From the NCBI GenBank assembly GCA_025927765.1, contig JAICKU010000018.1, forward strand, positions 1-54,826: a stretch of DNA of 54,826 nt, read 5' to 3'. Numbering within the stretch: position 1 is the first letter of the stretch; each line of letters starts with the position of its first letter. Both the position numbers and the translations under genes were made by a program. Under the pieces are notes generated by a model. The model saw nothing but the letters and a program-made list of their open reading frames with translations. It was not told the DNA's origin and did not search any database. The stretch comes from Burkholderiales bacterium (lineage in GTDB: Bacteria; Pseudomonadota; Gammaproteobacteria; Burkholderiales; Casimicrobiaceae). This document shows, piece by piece, positions 33,870-37,513 of the stretch.

Positions 33870-35357
33870 CTACAGCTTCGGCAGCGTGACGCCCTGTTGT
33901 CCCTGGTACTTGCCGCCGCGATCCTTGTACGACGTTTCGCAGACTTCGTCGGACTCGAAGAAGATCACCTGCGCCACACCCTCGTTGGCGTAGATCTTCG
34001 CAGGCAGCGGCGTCGTGTTCGAGAACTCGAGCGTGACGTGGCCCTCCCACTCGGGCTCGAGAGGCGTTACGTTGACGATGATGCCGCAATTCTTCACGAA
34101 AACGCCGGCTTCGAGCGCGAAGTTACCCGCCTCCGGCACCGTCAGGCAGAAGACGTCGTGCTGGCCGGGCAGCTCGCGTACGGCAGCCACCTTGTGATTG
34201 CGCATGCCGCGAAAGCGGGCGATGTCGTCCGGGAAGCGACGGAAAACCGTGCGATCGCATCCCAGGCGATGGCTCGCGTCTGAGCCGGGAGGCTGAAAGT
34301 CCCTGGCCCAGGCTGCAGCACTCAACTCGCCTTGCCGCAACCGTTCCTGGGGGTCGCGGTACCGCTCGACGCGTGCGCGCTTCGACTGCAGCGCCGTAAA
34401 ACGTTCTTGCCACGCCCGGTCGCTACCGAGGCGACGCAACGCGTGCCGAATGGCGTCGCCGTGCGCTTCGGCATCGAAGCCCTCCCCGTAGTTCTCGTCG
34501 TTATGCAGCCGGATAGGGTCCGAAGCCGGCAGCCGCCGGATGTTCGTTGGACGGTTGTTGCGGCGGTCGAGGTCGATGTGATGGCGATGCGTGCCCGTCT
34601 CTTCCGAATAGATGCGAGCGCGCAGGTTCCATTCGTCGGCGAGCCGATGCGTCGCCACCATATGATTCCCGACGGGTTGGTAGACCGTCTCATGGCCACG
34701 CACGAGATCACGATACAAGGGCATCAACGATCGCCCCGGCCGCAGATCGGCCGCCTGCTGCAGCGCGCCGTCGCGGAGAATGAACTCGTGATCCGCTGTC
34801 GTGTGGATCAACTCGCCGTTGTCGAGCTCGATTTCGAGCAACGAATCGACGCCGATGTGGCGCGGCGCGTCGAGCAGCGACACGATCACGCGGCCACGCT
34901 CGCCGATGCTATAGCCCCAGAACAGCTCACCCGAATCGGCGCGGCGCGCCATCTCCTGCAGTGTCGGCGACGTACCGTCGACGAGCGCCACGCGGGTGTC
35001 GCCACGAAAGCAGCGTGCATACGTGCTTTTTCCCAGGCACGCCACCAGCACGTTGCGCGGTATCCGGAAATACTCGATGGTGCGCGCCAGCGCGAACGAA
35101 TTCGGCGGGATGATGCAGACGTCGCCGACGAAGTCGACGAACGAGCCTTCGTCGAACTTCTTCGGGTCGACGATCGTCGAGTTGATGTTGGTGAAGATCT
35201 TGAATTCGTTCGAGCAGCGAATGTCGTAGCCGTAGCTCGACGTGCCGTACGACACGATGCGATGGCCGTTCGCCTCGCGCACCTGACCGGGCTCGAATGG
35301 CTCGATCATCCGATGAGCCTTGGCCATGCGGCGGATCCAGCGGTCGGACTTGATCAT
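33870..35357 (-). CDS. dcd: dCTP deaminase interrupted by an intein
   Basis: A 495-aa precursor. Residues 1-115 and 424-495 together form a normal 187-aa betaproteobacterial Dcd (dCTP to dUTP, feeding dTTP synthesis). Residues 116-423 are an in-frame intein. The N-extein ends in the conserved active-site motif KSTYAR (Arg115), and the C-extein begins [16 protein letters not shown] with catalytic Glu in [11 protein letters not shown]. Without splicing the active-site motif is broken, so activity should depend on protein splicing. Start ATG 35357 overlaps the vapC stop (ATGA); no separate SD is visible, so translation is probably coupled. The gene ends in QGVTLPKL, the usual Dcd C-terminus. Confidence 0.94.
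34089..35012 (-). mobile_element. Intein with HNH homing endonuclease domain inside Dcd
   Basis: A 308-residue intein. Block A starts with the nucleophile Cys1 ([13 protein letters not shown]), and block B is HTTADHEF (intein residues 70-77). An HNH-type endonuclease segment follows ([20 protein letters not shown], residues 143-161, continuing to RLHNDENYG). Block F is [15 protein letters not shown] and block G AGVFVKN, with terminal Asn308 and +1 Cys of the extein. The penultimate residue is Lys rather than the usual His. By eye it is less GC-rich than flanking genes. All residues needed for class 1 splicing are present except the penultimate His, which some active inteins also lack. Confidence 0.92.
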
Positions 35358-35803
35358 GAATTTGACTCGCTACCTGACAGGTTCGGAACGACGCGCAGGC
35401 CTTCGGCAGTGGCCGCGAGCGCGAGGCGTCGATCGAAGCAAACGAATTCGAGCGGCTCGTGCGAGCCTTCCGCGGCGAGCACGGCGCTCGCGAGCCGAAT
35501 GGCGTCGCCCGCGCGAAGCGCATGCCGCGCGACCATCTTCTCCGCGGCTGACCGCAATGTCATCGTCGGCTCGGTCACGTTCCATCGCGCGGACAGGTCG
35601 GTGAGCCGATTCAACGCGCCGGCGAGCTGGATCTCCGATGCGATGCGCTCGCGATAGCGCCGGACGAATGCGGAAACGCACTCGATGGTGGCCGTCCAGG
35701 CGACGACGATGTCGGCATCGGACCGCAGCAAGCGTGCGACGACGTGGGTCGTGGCCTCCGGGATGACGAGCGGGACGAGCGCCGACGCGTCCCAGAAGCG
35801 CAT
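35354..35803 (-). CDS. vapC: VapC-type PIN-domain toxin
   Basis: A 149-aa PIN ribonuclease. Acidic catalytic residues are in place: Asp5 (FWDASAL), Glu41 (ATIEC), Asp100 ([10 protein letters not shown]) and Asp124 (VCFDRRL). Its ATG overlaps the vapB stop by one base (TGATG) and its own stop overlaps the dcd start (ATGA). It is the toxin of a type II pair; family members cleave tRNA or rRNA. It sits between the household genes mrp and dcd. Confidence 0.9.
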
Positions 35804-36093
35804 CAGTACCTCGCCTCTTCGCGATCCTGCAACAGCGCTTCCACCACGCTTCCCGATTCGGGCCAGTCGATCGGCGGAGGCAGCGTCCTGCGCGGCGGCC
35901 GCGCGGCACGACGAATGATGCCGCGCCGCTCGAGGTCGGCGAGGCGCTCGTCGTCGCTTTGCGACGCTTCGATGGGTACGATGCGGGCGATCGGACGGTC
36001 GCGTTCGAGAATCAGCACCGTTTCGCCCCGCTTGACGCCGGCCAGGAGCTCGGACAGGTGATTCTTCGCCTGCGAGATGGTTGCGGTCTTCAT
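35803..36093 (-). CDS. vapB: Phd/YefM-type antitoxin partner of VapC
   Basis: A 96-aa antitoxin with the Phd-type N-terminal DNA-binding part (MKTATISQAKNHLSELLAGV, RGETVLILERDRPIARIVP) and an Arg/Pro-rich C-terminal tail ending EALLQDREEARY that would wrap the toxin. ATG 36093 is chosen over ATG 36102 because the latter lies inside the -10 box of a good promoter. The transcript would then start about at the 36093 ATG, giving a leaderless or nearly leaderless message. The gene symbol follows the pairing with VapC; the fold is Phd-like. Confidence 0.85.
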   Translation of the reverse strand: MKTATISQAKNHLSELLAGVKRGETVLILERDRPIARIVPIEASQSDDERLADLERRGIIRRAARPPRRTLPPPIDWPESGSVVEALLQDREEARY

Positions 36094-36179: not shown

Positions 36180-37268
36180 CTACGTGTTCTGCACGACGAT
36201 ATTCGGAAACTTCGACGAGAAGTCCTCGGCCTTCTTCGCCACGGCGATCGCCACGCGGCGCGCGATCGCCTTGTATTTCTGCGCCACCGCGCCATCGGGA
36301 TCGGCCACCACCGTCGGCCGTCCCGAATCGGCCTGCTCGCGGATCCGGATGTCGAGCGGGAGGCTTCCCAGAAACGCGACGTCGTAGTCGCGGCACATGC
36401 GCTCGGCGCCGCCTTCGCCGAAGATGTGCTCCTCGGCGCCGCAGTTCGAGCAGATGTGGATGGCCATGTTCTCGACGACGCCGAGGATGGGCACGCCCAC
36501 CTTCTCGAACATCTTGAGTCCCTTGCGCGCGTCGATCAGCGCGATGTCCTGCGGCGTGGTCACGATCACCGCGCCCGTCACCGGTACCTTCTGCGACAAC
36601 GTGAGCGCGATGTCGCCGGTGCCGGGGGGCATGTCGACGACGAGGTAATCGAGATCGCGCCAGTTCGTATCCTTCAACAGTTGCTCGAGCGCCTGCGTCA
36701 CCATCGGGCCGCGCCACACCATCGGCGTGTCGGTGTCGATCAGGAATCCGATCGACATCGCCTGCACGCCGTACGCTTCCATCGGCTCGATCGTCTTGCC
36801 GTCCTTCGACTCCGGACGACCGGCGAGGCCGAGCATCATCGGCTGCGACGGACCGTAGATGTCGGCGTCGAGCACGCCGACGCGCGCACCTTCGGCGGCA
36901 AGCGCCAGCGCGAGATTCACCGCGGTGGTCGACTTGCCGACGCCGCCCTTGCCGCTCGCGACGGCGACGATGTTGCGCACGTTGGGCAGCAGCTTCACCC
37001 CGCGCTGCACCGCGTGCGACGACGCCTTCTGCGACACGTTGACATGCACGCGCGACACGCCTGGCAGCGACGCCAGTCCGTCGTGCACGATGTGCCGGAT
37101 CGCTTCGTGCTGGCTGCGCGCGGGATAACCAAGCTGAATGTCGACGGTCAGATCACCGCCGTCGACCGTGATCTTCTTCACCTCCTTCGCGCTCACGAAG
37201 TCGCGCTCGAGGTTGGGGTCGACGAGCTCGCGCAGACGTTGCTGCACGTCCTGTTCGGTCAAGGCCAT
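36180..37268 (-). CDS. mrp: Mrp/ApbC iron-sulfur cluster carrier ATPase
   Basis: A 362-aa P-loop ATPase of the Mrp/NBP35/ApbC family that delivers Fe-S clusters to apo-proteins. N-terminal MIP18/DUF59 domain (RLRELVDPNLERDFVSAKEV), deviant Walker A SGKGGVGKST (106-113 for GKGGVGKS), VLDADIYGPSQP and VVDMPPGTGD. The cluster-binding CxxC is in HICSNCGAEEHIF. Start ATG 37268 has a GAGGAAG ribosome site. Upstream of vapBC-dcd on the same strand and divergent from metG, a common betaproteobacterial neighbourhood. Confidence 0.94.
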   Translation of the reverse strand: MALTEQDVQQRLRELVDPNLERDFVSAKEVKKITVDGGDLTVDIQLGYPARSQHEAIRHIVHDGLASLPGVSRVHVNVSQKASSHAVQRGVKLLPNVRNIVAVASGKGGVGKSTTAVNLALALAAEGARVGVLDADIYGPSQPMMLGLAGRPESKDGKTIEPMEAYGVQAMSIGFLIDTDTPMVWRGPMVTQALEQLLKDTNWRDLDYLVVDMPPGTGDIALTLSQKVPVTGAVIVTTPQDIALIDARKGLKMFEKVGVPILGVVENMAIHICSNCGAEEHIFGEGGAERMCRDYDVAFLGSLPLDIRIREQADSGRPTVVADPDGAVAQKYKAIARRVAIAVAKKAEDFSSKFPNIVVQNT

Positions 37269-37305
37269 GGCTTCCTCGGGATTGGTGCTGGCGGGTCCCG
37301 CTGTC

Positions 37306-37350
37306 GAGGGTCGGACTTCAAATTCGGTGCCGAATTTGGCGTCTGACCTC
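37306..37350. repeat. Intergenic hairpin element of the GTCGGAC family
   Basis: GAGGGTCGGACTTCAAATTCGG (37306-37327) and CCGAATTTGGCGTCTGACCTC (37330-37350) pair almost completely around a 2-nt loop. CAAATTCGG/CCGAATTTG is perfect; the outer part has three mismatches and one bulge. It lies in the mrp-metG divergent spacer. Confidence 0.75.
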
Positions 37351-37465
37351 AAACAGGGACTCGAATCGGTTGTCAATTCTAGTCCTGCCGTCTCGCGCCA
37401 CCCTTGCGGAACGTCAAGTTGCGAGTCCAGGACGCGCTCAGCGCGCGATGAGTCGCCGGCCGCTT

Positions 37466-37474
37466 TGCTAGAAT
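37466..37474 (+). promoter_or_regulatory. Extended -10 promoter of metG
   Basis: TGCTAGAAT: TGC followed by the -10 hexamer TAGAAT at 37469-37474, about 40 bp before the metG ATG. No convincing -35 box, as usual for extended -10 promoters. Confidence 0.55.
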
Positions 37475-37513
37475 TCGCGTTCCCGCCTCGCCCGATCACC
37501 GAACTCCAAAGGA

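Follow-up and report, generated by a model that had tools for sequence, protein, structure and literature searches.

Among the closest described systems is an intein in dCTP deaminase (Dcd) of a cyanophage. ORF069 of cyanophage vB_AphaS-CL131 (MG209611) carries a Dcd intein that, according to the parts of the report available to us, excised itself after expression in E. coli (PMC6293099). The same partial text cites self-splicing Dcd elements for one Proteobacterium and one Chloroflexi (MacGregor et al. 2013); these share host gene and phyla with the family described below, a likeness drawn from the citing text alone.

The window analysed here is a stretch of 54,826 nucleotides from a Burkholderiales bacterium (family Casimicrobiaceae; contig JAICKU010000018.1 of assembly GCA_025927765.1), in which dcd is split by an insert of 308 codons. 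The CL131 intein resembles this insert in host protein, insertion residue (KSTYAR/C), HNH type, Cys1 and last Asn. It differs in its length of 352 aa, in an HNH_3 match over the cut-off (35.7 bits) and in lying in a phage gene; the two inteins are 32% identical, and in the tree a long branch separates CL131 from the bacterial family. The best intein-type family profile is NF052663 (RtcB_rel_intein2; 9.1e-37 for the window protein and 5.1e-34 for a full-length relative), which differs in that the host is an RtcB family protein and that the window scores far below its whole-protein cut-off. HNH-type inteins of viral contigs (e.g., L129, L131, L138) are alike in their CFTGDT-type start and, mostly, their NFAL...GVFVHN-type end, but share 23-53% identity in the best segment over 64 loci and, among the flanks that were read, mostly occupy hosts other than Dcd.

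The site between Arg115 and Cys116 is thus already known from phage CL131. What is new is the decay of the window copy, a conflict between intein and host trees, a second site in Dcd that holds a LAGLIDADG intein, and a Dcd that carries two inteins. In a search of the literature outside subscription papers and intein databases, we found no report of a cross-phylum family, of a second site or of a double-intein gene. We are highly confident that the window insert is a cis-splicing, class-1-type intein from a family spread by homing, whose endonuclease has decayed and whose splicing has been kept, leaving it immobile and on the way to a mini-intein.

An intein between Arg115 and Cys116 of Dcd

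The gene and its parts lie on the minus strand of the window as follows.

33870..35357, minus: dcd precursor gene (dCTP deaminase with intein), 495 aa plus stop, from the translated open reading frame
35013..35357, minus: N-extein, Dcd residues 1-115, ending in KSTYAR (TIGR02274, PF22769, 4dhk_A)
34089..35012, minus: intein of 308 aa, Cys1 to Asn308 (junctions, profiles, AlphaFold model)
34086-34088, minus: codon of the +1 residue, Cys116
33870..34088, minus: C-extein, Dcd residues 116-187 plus stop (4dhk_A match)

The intein makes up residues 116-423 of the 495-aa precursor and is inserted in frame; its first residue is Cys, its last is Asn, and the host's Cys116 is the +1 residue. Over the insert, PF14890 (Intein_splicing) scores 46.9 bits (E 3.2e-12; Pfam cut-off 35.8), and the two terminal profiles also exceed their cut-offs (24.5 and 15.6 bits), TIGR01445 (intein_Nterm) with 26.7 bits and TIGR01443 (intein_Cterm) with 16.9. 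The host protein passes the curated cut-off of TIGR02274 (dCTP deaminase) with 146.8 versus 92.8 bits. The solved Dcd 4dhk_A, whose own chain is uninterrupted, aligns to the two flanks as separate segments that join up at the insert (phmmer E 8.9e-102), and the flanks joined without the insert give a Dcd of 187 aa. A sequence-only reading of the locus had proposed just such an intein, of 308 residues with a Cys start, an Asn end and a +1 Cys, whose removal restores a 187-aa Dcd; the boundaries and profiles bear this out. It had also placed the insertion directly after Arg115 of KSTYAR, and the residue preceding the +1 Cys does align with chain residue 115 of the Dcd entry 1xs1, which we take to be the E. 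coli enzyme. We regard it as confirmed that the insert at this position is real as an intein, and chance is excluded as its cause.

Arg115 and Ser111 of Dcd are presumably catalytic residues; a literature search on Dcd active-site residues returned no text. The host enzyme would be inactive until splicing. Given that the window genome (G000), which is 95.6% complete, has a single Dcd match at E <= 0.001, any Dcd that the cell makes is probably a product of splicing.

Occupied and empty sites in the genus and family

Within the genus, five of 22 genomes have an intein between Arg115 and Cys116 (G000, G008, G014, G016 and G021), and those of the four other carriers are 376-377 aa long and begin at the same residue as that of the window. 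In 13 of the 22 the Dcd matches abut at the insertion site, which is therefore empty, and nine of these could be read directly as an uninterrupted ten-residue stretch. The remaining genomes are G006 and G013, with a different Dcd intein, G009, where the gene is cut by a contig end, and G003, in which no Dcd match was found. Across the family the intein is present in six of 64 genomes, the sixth copy (G468) being split across two contigs; G015 was left out of this tally, with a weak partial match (4.4e-4) on a contig other than that of its Dcd.

The in-frame insert has, as expected of an intein, precise empty-site homologues. The sequence-only reading had named as its contrary case a structural domain shared by all close relatives, with no precise empty-site Dcd homologues among them, and we reject that interpretation because of the exact empty sites in the genus. 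As the draft genome consists of 148 contigs, of which the window is one, one could ask whether the insertion arose during assembly. This explanation is already refuted, and we give it practically no weight: four further genomes of the genus carry an intein homologue of 376-377 aa at this residue, and the best 80 of 153 loci from a wider scan, those four included, begin there as well.

Splicing residues and predicted fold

The residues on which splicing would depend are found at the following positions, each assigned by alignment.

34983..35012, minus: block A region, ten residues with the nucleophile Cys1
34788..34799, minus: block B core T-x-D-H (TADH; Thr72, His75)
34146-34148, minus: Cys289, assigned to F:4
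34089..34205, minus: C-terminal splicing part, blocks F and G, with Lys307 penultimate and Asn308 last

We aligned 81 Dcd inteins, namely 78 of the 80 scan loci, the window copy, CL131 and the viral copy L162; L055 and L107 were dropped. All 81 have Cys1, the Thr, Asp and His of block B, the Cys assigned to F:4 and the last Asn, where the conservation of Cys1, as of the first HNH His, is partly by construction because the patterns of the species-genome scan required a Cys-Phe start or the first HNH His pair, the other conserved residues being absent from those patterns. Of the 80 loci, 78 have Cys at +1; L055, with its C end out of frame, and L107, where the match stops early, are the exceptions. 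The out-of-frame C-terminal end of L055 (JAOSJU010000001.1) may reflect a sequencing indel or a broken gene.

The penultimate residue is more variable (His in 30 of the 81, Ser in 26, Arg in 10, Lys in seven including the window, others in eight). In block G the window copy has Lys in place of His, and so lacks a common but non-obligatory feature of class 1 inteins. In the parts of one source available to us, the His at G:6 is described as a residue that assists splicing, and two titles cited there concern splicing without it (PMC4031507). The same source describes class 3 inteins as having no nucleophile at position 1 and a Cys at F:4. The F:4 Cys might suggest this class here, and it is ruled out because Cys1 is present in 81 of 81 copies.

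An AlphaFold model of the window intein, built on an alignment of 54 sequences, has a mean pLDDT of 86.6, with low confidence at intein residues 238-252. A Foldseek search with the model returned inteins first (best 1zd7, a DnaE intein, E 3.8e-7; also 6frg and 4gig), with 45 matches at E <= 0.001. Among the 50 matches listed, TM-scores were 0.16-0.41 by query length and up to 0.80 by target length, the former being low because most of the matched chains are mini-inteins or splicing domains. The model thus predicts a Hint fold for the window intein. In four pairs that include the window copy, dN/dS of the splicing region is 0.08-0.16 (dS is high), which indicates that this region is under constraint. 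We predict from these features that the window copy splices.

Lesions in the endonuclease region

The segment between the splicing parts contains a recognizable but damaged HNH motif and two deletions.

34500..34589, minus: HNH segment HRHHID...NNRPTN...PIRLHN (PF13392 below cut-off; alignment)
34515-34517, minus: codon CCT (Pro) in place of a conserved HNH His (alignment)
34370..34371, minus: junction of a 102-bp (34-residue) in-frame gap relative to the four same-genus inteins
34227..34298, minus: region of a 93-bp (31-residue) in-frame gap, with an altered remnant of TGSIRGAAR (alignment, model)

At position 166 of the intein, all 65 full-length copies have His, presumably a metal ligand, and the window has Pro; His144, His145, Asn152, Asn153 and His170 of the motif are kept. 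The set of HNH active-site residues is thus incomplete in the window. The region downstream of the motif, which may bind DNA, is not intact either: 34 and 31 residues are missing, a further 9-12 bp are missing near the end relative to the same-genus copies of 376-377 aa, and the segment TGSIRGAAR, conserved in most copies and presumed to be a helix-turn-helix, reads PGSDASH. The His-to-Pro change and the deletions were read from one assembly. The sequence-only reading had listed blocks A, B, F and G plus an HNH segment; the blocks hold, with the penultimate Lys in block G, and the HNH segment is present in the damaged form described here.

The score of PF13392 on the window HNH segment (18.8 bits, cut-off 24.8) was dropped as a sign of decay, because an undamaged same-genus relative scores lower (14.2 bits). 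Substitution rates do not clearly show faster change of the window HNH segment: dN/dS could be computed for three window pairs (0.09-0.11) and for a single pair of relatives (0.12), and pN is 0.135-0.169 in window pairs versus 0.092-0.144 in other pairs. As dS is near saturation, these values do not show faster change, and our case for recent decay is built solely on the individual lesions. By length, the 81 copies fall into 65 full ones (at least 340 aa, including CL131 and L162), three partial ones (the window with 308 aa, L101 with 322 and L093 with 326) and 13 mini-inteins (210-285 aa). The window HNH endonuclease is probably dead, and this copy should splice yet not home.

Could splicing have been lost as well, in a cell that does without Dcd? 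The damaged endonuclease region and the missing penultimate His might suggest such a relic. However, the splicing residues remain in place, no stop interrupts the 495 codons and the splicing region appears constrained; given that the penultimate His is absent from 51 of the 81 copies, its lack is no mark of a dead intein. We consider a splicing-dead relic very unlikely.

Conditional splicing, in which the intein would block the Dcd active-site loop until the right redox, metal or stress state is reached, is another scenario, and one that we hold to be unlikely, if somewhat less so. The insertion does split the active-site motif of the only dcd found in this genome, and a ComEB-type dCMP deaminase was not found there at E <= 0.001 (a control matched in eight of 14 genomes). 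The Cys residues at F:4 and +1 could be redox-sensitive, and conditional splicing is described for mycobacterial DnaB in the available parts of two reports (PMC6195587, PMC7360933). A switch of this kind is not needed in the 13 of 22 genus genomes where Dcd is uninterrupted, and homing alone explains both the patchy presence and the endonuclease decay.

In the reading that we favour, a homing intein that has lost mobility and still splices, the dcd precursor would be translated whole. Cys1 and then the host's Cys116 would attack the N-terminal junction, after which Asn308 would cyclise and the two Dcd pieces would be joined into the enzyme of 187 residues. As for homing, the family's HNH endonuclease would presumably cleave dcd alleles that lack the intein, in the stretch of DNA that encodes the conserved GKSTYARCG. 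In the window copy the endonuclease would have decayed and splicing would have been kept, since no other dcd was found in the genome and this one depends on it.

Distribution and probable transfer between phyla

When species genomes were scanned with the intein alignment, 188 candidate stretches emerged, 153 of them relatives; the best 80 of these were analysed. All 80 begin at the same Dcd residue. The N-flank is KSTYAR in 67, KSSYAR in 10 and KSTFAR in two; in the remaining locus, L106, STYAR comes straight after another intein. By record, 41 belong to Pseudomonadota, 23 to Chloroflexota, seven to Cyanobacteriota, three to Deinococcota and one each to Methylomirabilota, Acidobacteriota and Elusimicrobiota, and three are without a phylum. 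Dcd is therefore a recurrent bacterial insertion site (80 of 80 among the best relatives). Together with the published phage CL131, this corrects the earlier impression that Dcd is not a standard site in bacteria. The family is nonetheless rare: among 398 genomes sampled across the phylum of the window, the Dcd intein was found in G000 only, with three partial matches at 1e-7 or worse, although often just four first-look candidates per genome were scored, so copies can be missed.

Three viral copies occupy the same Dcd residue (CL131, L162 and L157). Of the 64 viral loci, the flanks of 32 were read, L162 alone being in Dcd, and a motif scan of all 64 added only L157. The latter, on a 270-kb viral contig (IMGVR_UViG_3300022744_000020), is a mini-intein at the same Arg/Cys site, apparently without an endonuclease. 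Searched against PLSDB, the window intein matched one record, annotated gyrB (32% identity, E 6e-34).

Sixty-one full copies carry a phylum name; their cross-phylum pairs (n=1163) have median identities of 63.9% for Dcd and 71.8% for the splicing region, their within-phylum pairs (n=667) of 82.5% and 73.2%. The identity of the whole intein equals or exceeds that of Dcd in 414 of the 1163 cross-phylum pairs, versus nine of the 667 within-phylum pairs. A tree that keeps Chloroflexota as one clade is rejected for the intein (p-AU 0.00015) and is not rejected for Dcd (p-AU 0.503). This test set 18 rows against 45, omitting the three that lacked a phylum; the group was chosen after the tree was inspected, and the trees were of a quick kind. 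This conflict between intein and host trees points to transfer between phyla. Phyla are strongly clustered in the intein tree (eight changes versus a shuffled mean of 25.4), and Cyanobacteriota (six rows) and Deinococcota (three) each stay together in both trees, which speaks against free traffic.

A phage as recent donor is not supported, because in a tree of 68 rows (L157 not among them) CL131 and L162 are set off from the bacterial copies by long branches. Phage Dcds near the window Dcd (79.7% identity, 38% query coverage) match in two pieces joined over 558 bp, with no insert.

A second site five residues upstream

The different Dcd intein of G006 is of the LAGLIDADG type, has 411 residues (PF14528 67.4 bits, PF14890 64.8 bits) and lies between Lys110 and Ser111, five residues upstream of the window's site.

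L034, 522-1754: LAGLIDADG intein in Dcd of G006
L106, 1290-2522: LAGLIDADG-type intein of a double-intein Dcd
L106, 2538-3350: HNH-type mini-intein of the same Dcd

A homologue in G013 is split over two contigs (L035/L036), so that this site is occupied in two of the 22 genus genomes. These are also the two of 64 family genomes with this intein (best identities 100 and 79%); 12 more family genomes matched it at 28-33%, presumably through other inteins. A search of viral contigs gave five candidate stretches, with no relative among them. Among NCBIfam profiles, this LAGLIDADG intein matches PRK07773 best (replicative DNA helicase, 1.1e-64); given that the window insert matches RtcB_rel_intein2 best, the two Dcd inteins do not appear to be recent copies of each other.

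In L106 (JADZCB010000308.1), a gammaproteobacterial MAG, both inteins lie in one open-frame Dcd, in the order Dcd 1-111 (numbered with one extra N-terminal residue relative to the window), a 411-residue LAGLIDADG-type intein, STYAR, a 271-residue HNH-type mini-intein and the C part of Dcd. It is the only one of the best 80 loci (of 153) whose flank shows both. The MAG also holds a second, empty dcd (L204) and so may be mixed; a false join by the assembler within 15 bp is unlikely.

The KSTYARC loop could be a double docking site for two unrelated inteins, the HNH type at Arg115/Cys116 and the LAGLIDADG type at Lys110/Ser111, which can both be present in one gene, with the window holding an HNH competitor that has lost its mobility; we give this proposal about an even chance. 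With insertion points 15 bp apart, the DNA targets presumably overlap, and each insertion should then destroy the target of the other. Neighbouring inteins in Haloferax MCM are reported to interfere in homing, in the part of that source available to us (PMC10643990). If the proposal is true, the five-residue extein of L106 makes the order of splicing, and exclusion between selfish elements, testable.

The family gains a new, decaying member in the window copy, whose interest lies in the contested active-site loop. A small Dcd of 187 aa whose active-site loop takes two different inteins five residues apart is a clean system for study. It opens questions about inteins that cross phyla, about exclusion or tolerance at neighbouring targets, and about endonuclease decay with splicing kept. 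Full (at least 340 aa), partial and mini (210-285 aa) copies at one residue, with a variable penultimate position, may also serve intein engineering.

Neighbouring genes and other intein-like insertions

The dUTPase gene dut (TIGR00576) was found in 10 of the 22 genus genomes at E <= 0.001 (nine over the cut-off; the drafts are incomplete), and not in the window genome at that threshold. It is present in one of seven carriers of either Dcd intein versus nine of 15 others (Fisher p = 0.074, uncorrected for kinship), the 15 including G003 and G009, whose Dcd state could not be read. On these numbers we do not claim a link between a missing dut and a Dcd intein.

Between dcd and the gene of an Mrp-like ATPase (36180-37499), the window has, on the minus strand at 35354-36093, a Phd/YefM-type antitoxin (40.1 bits to PF02604) and a PIN-domain protein, whose match to PF01850 falls slightly short of the cut-off (22.7 versus 23.6 bits). 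Further intein-like insertions occur on three other contigs of the window genome (C141, C7 and C117; L037, L038 and L040). Judging by the flanks, two are in a DnaB-like helicase and one is in each of two ribonucleotide-reductase-like proteins; the insertion on C117 scores 16.7 bits, below the profile cut-off.
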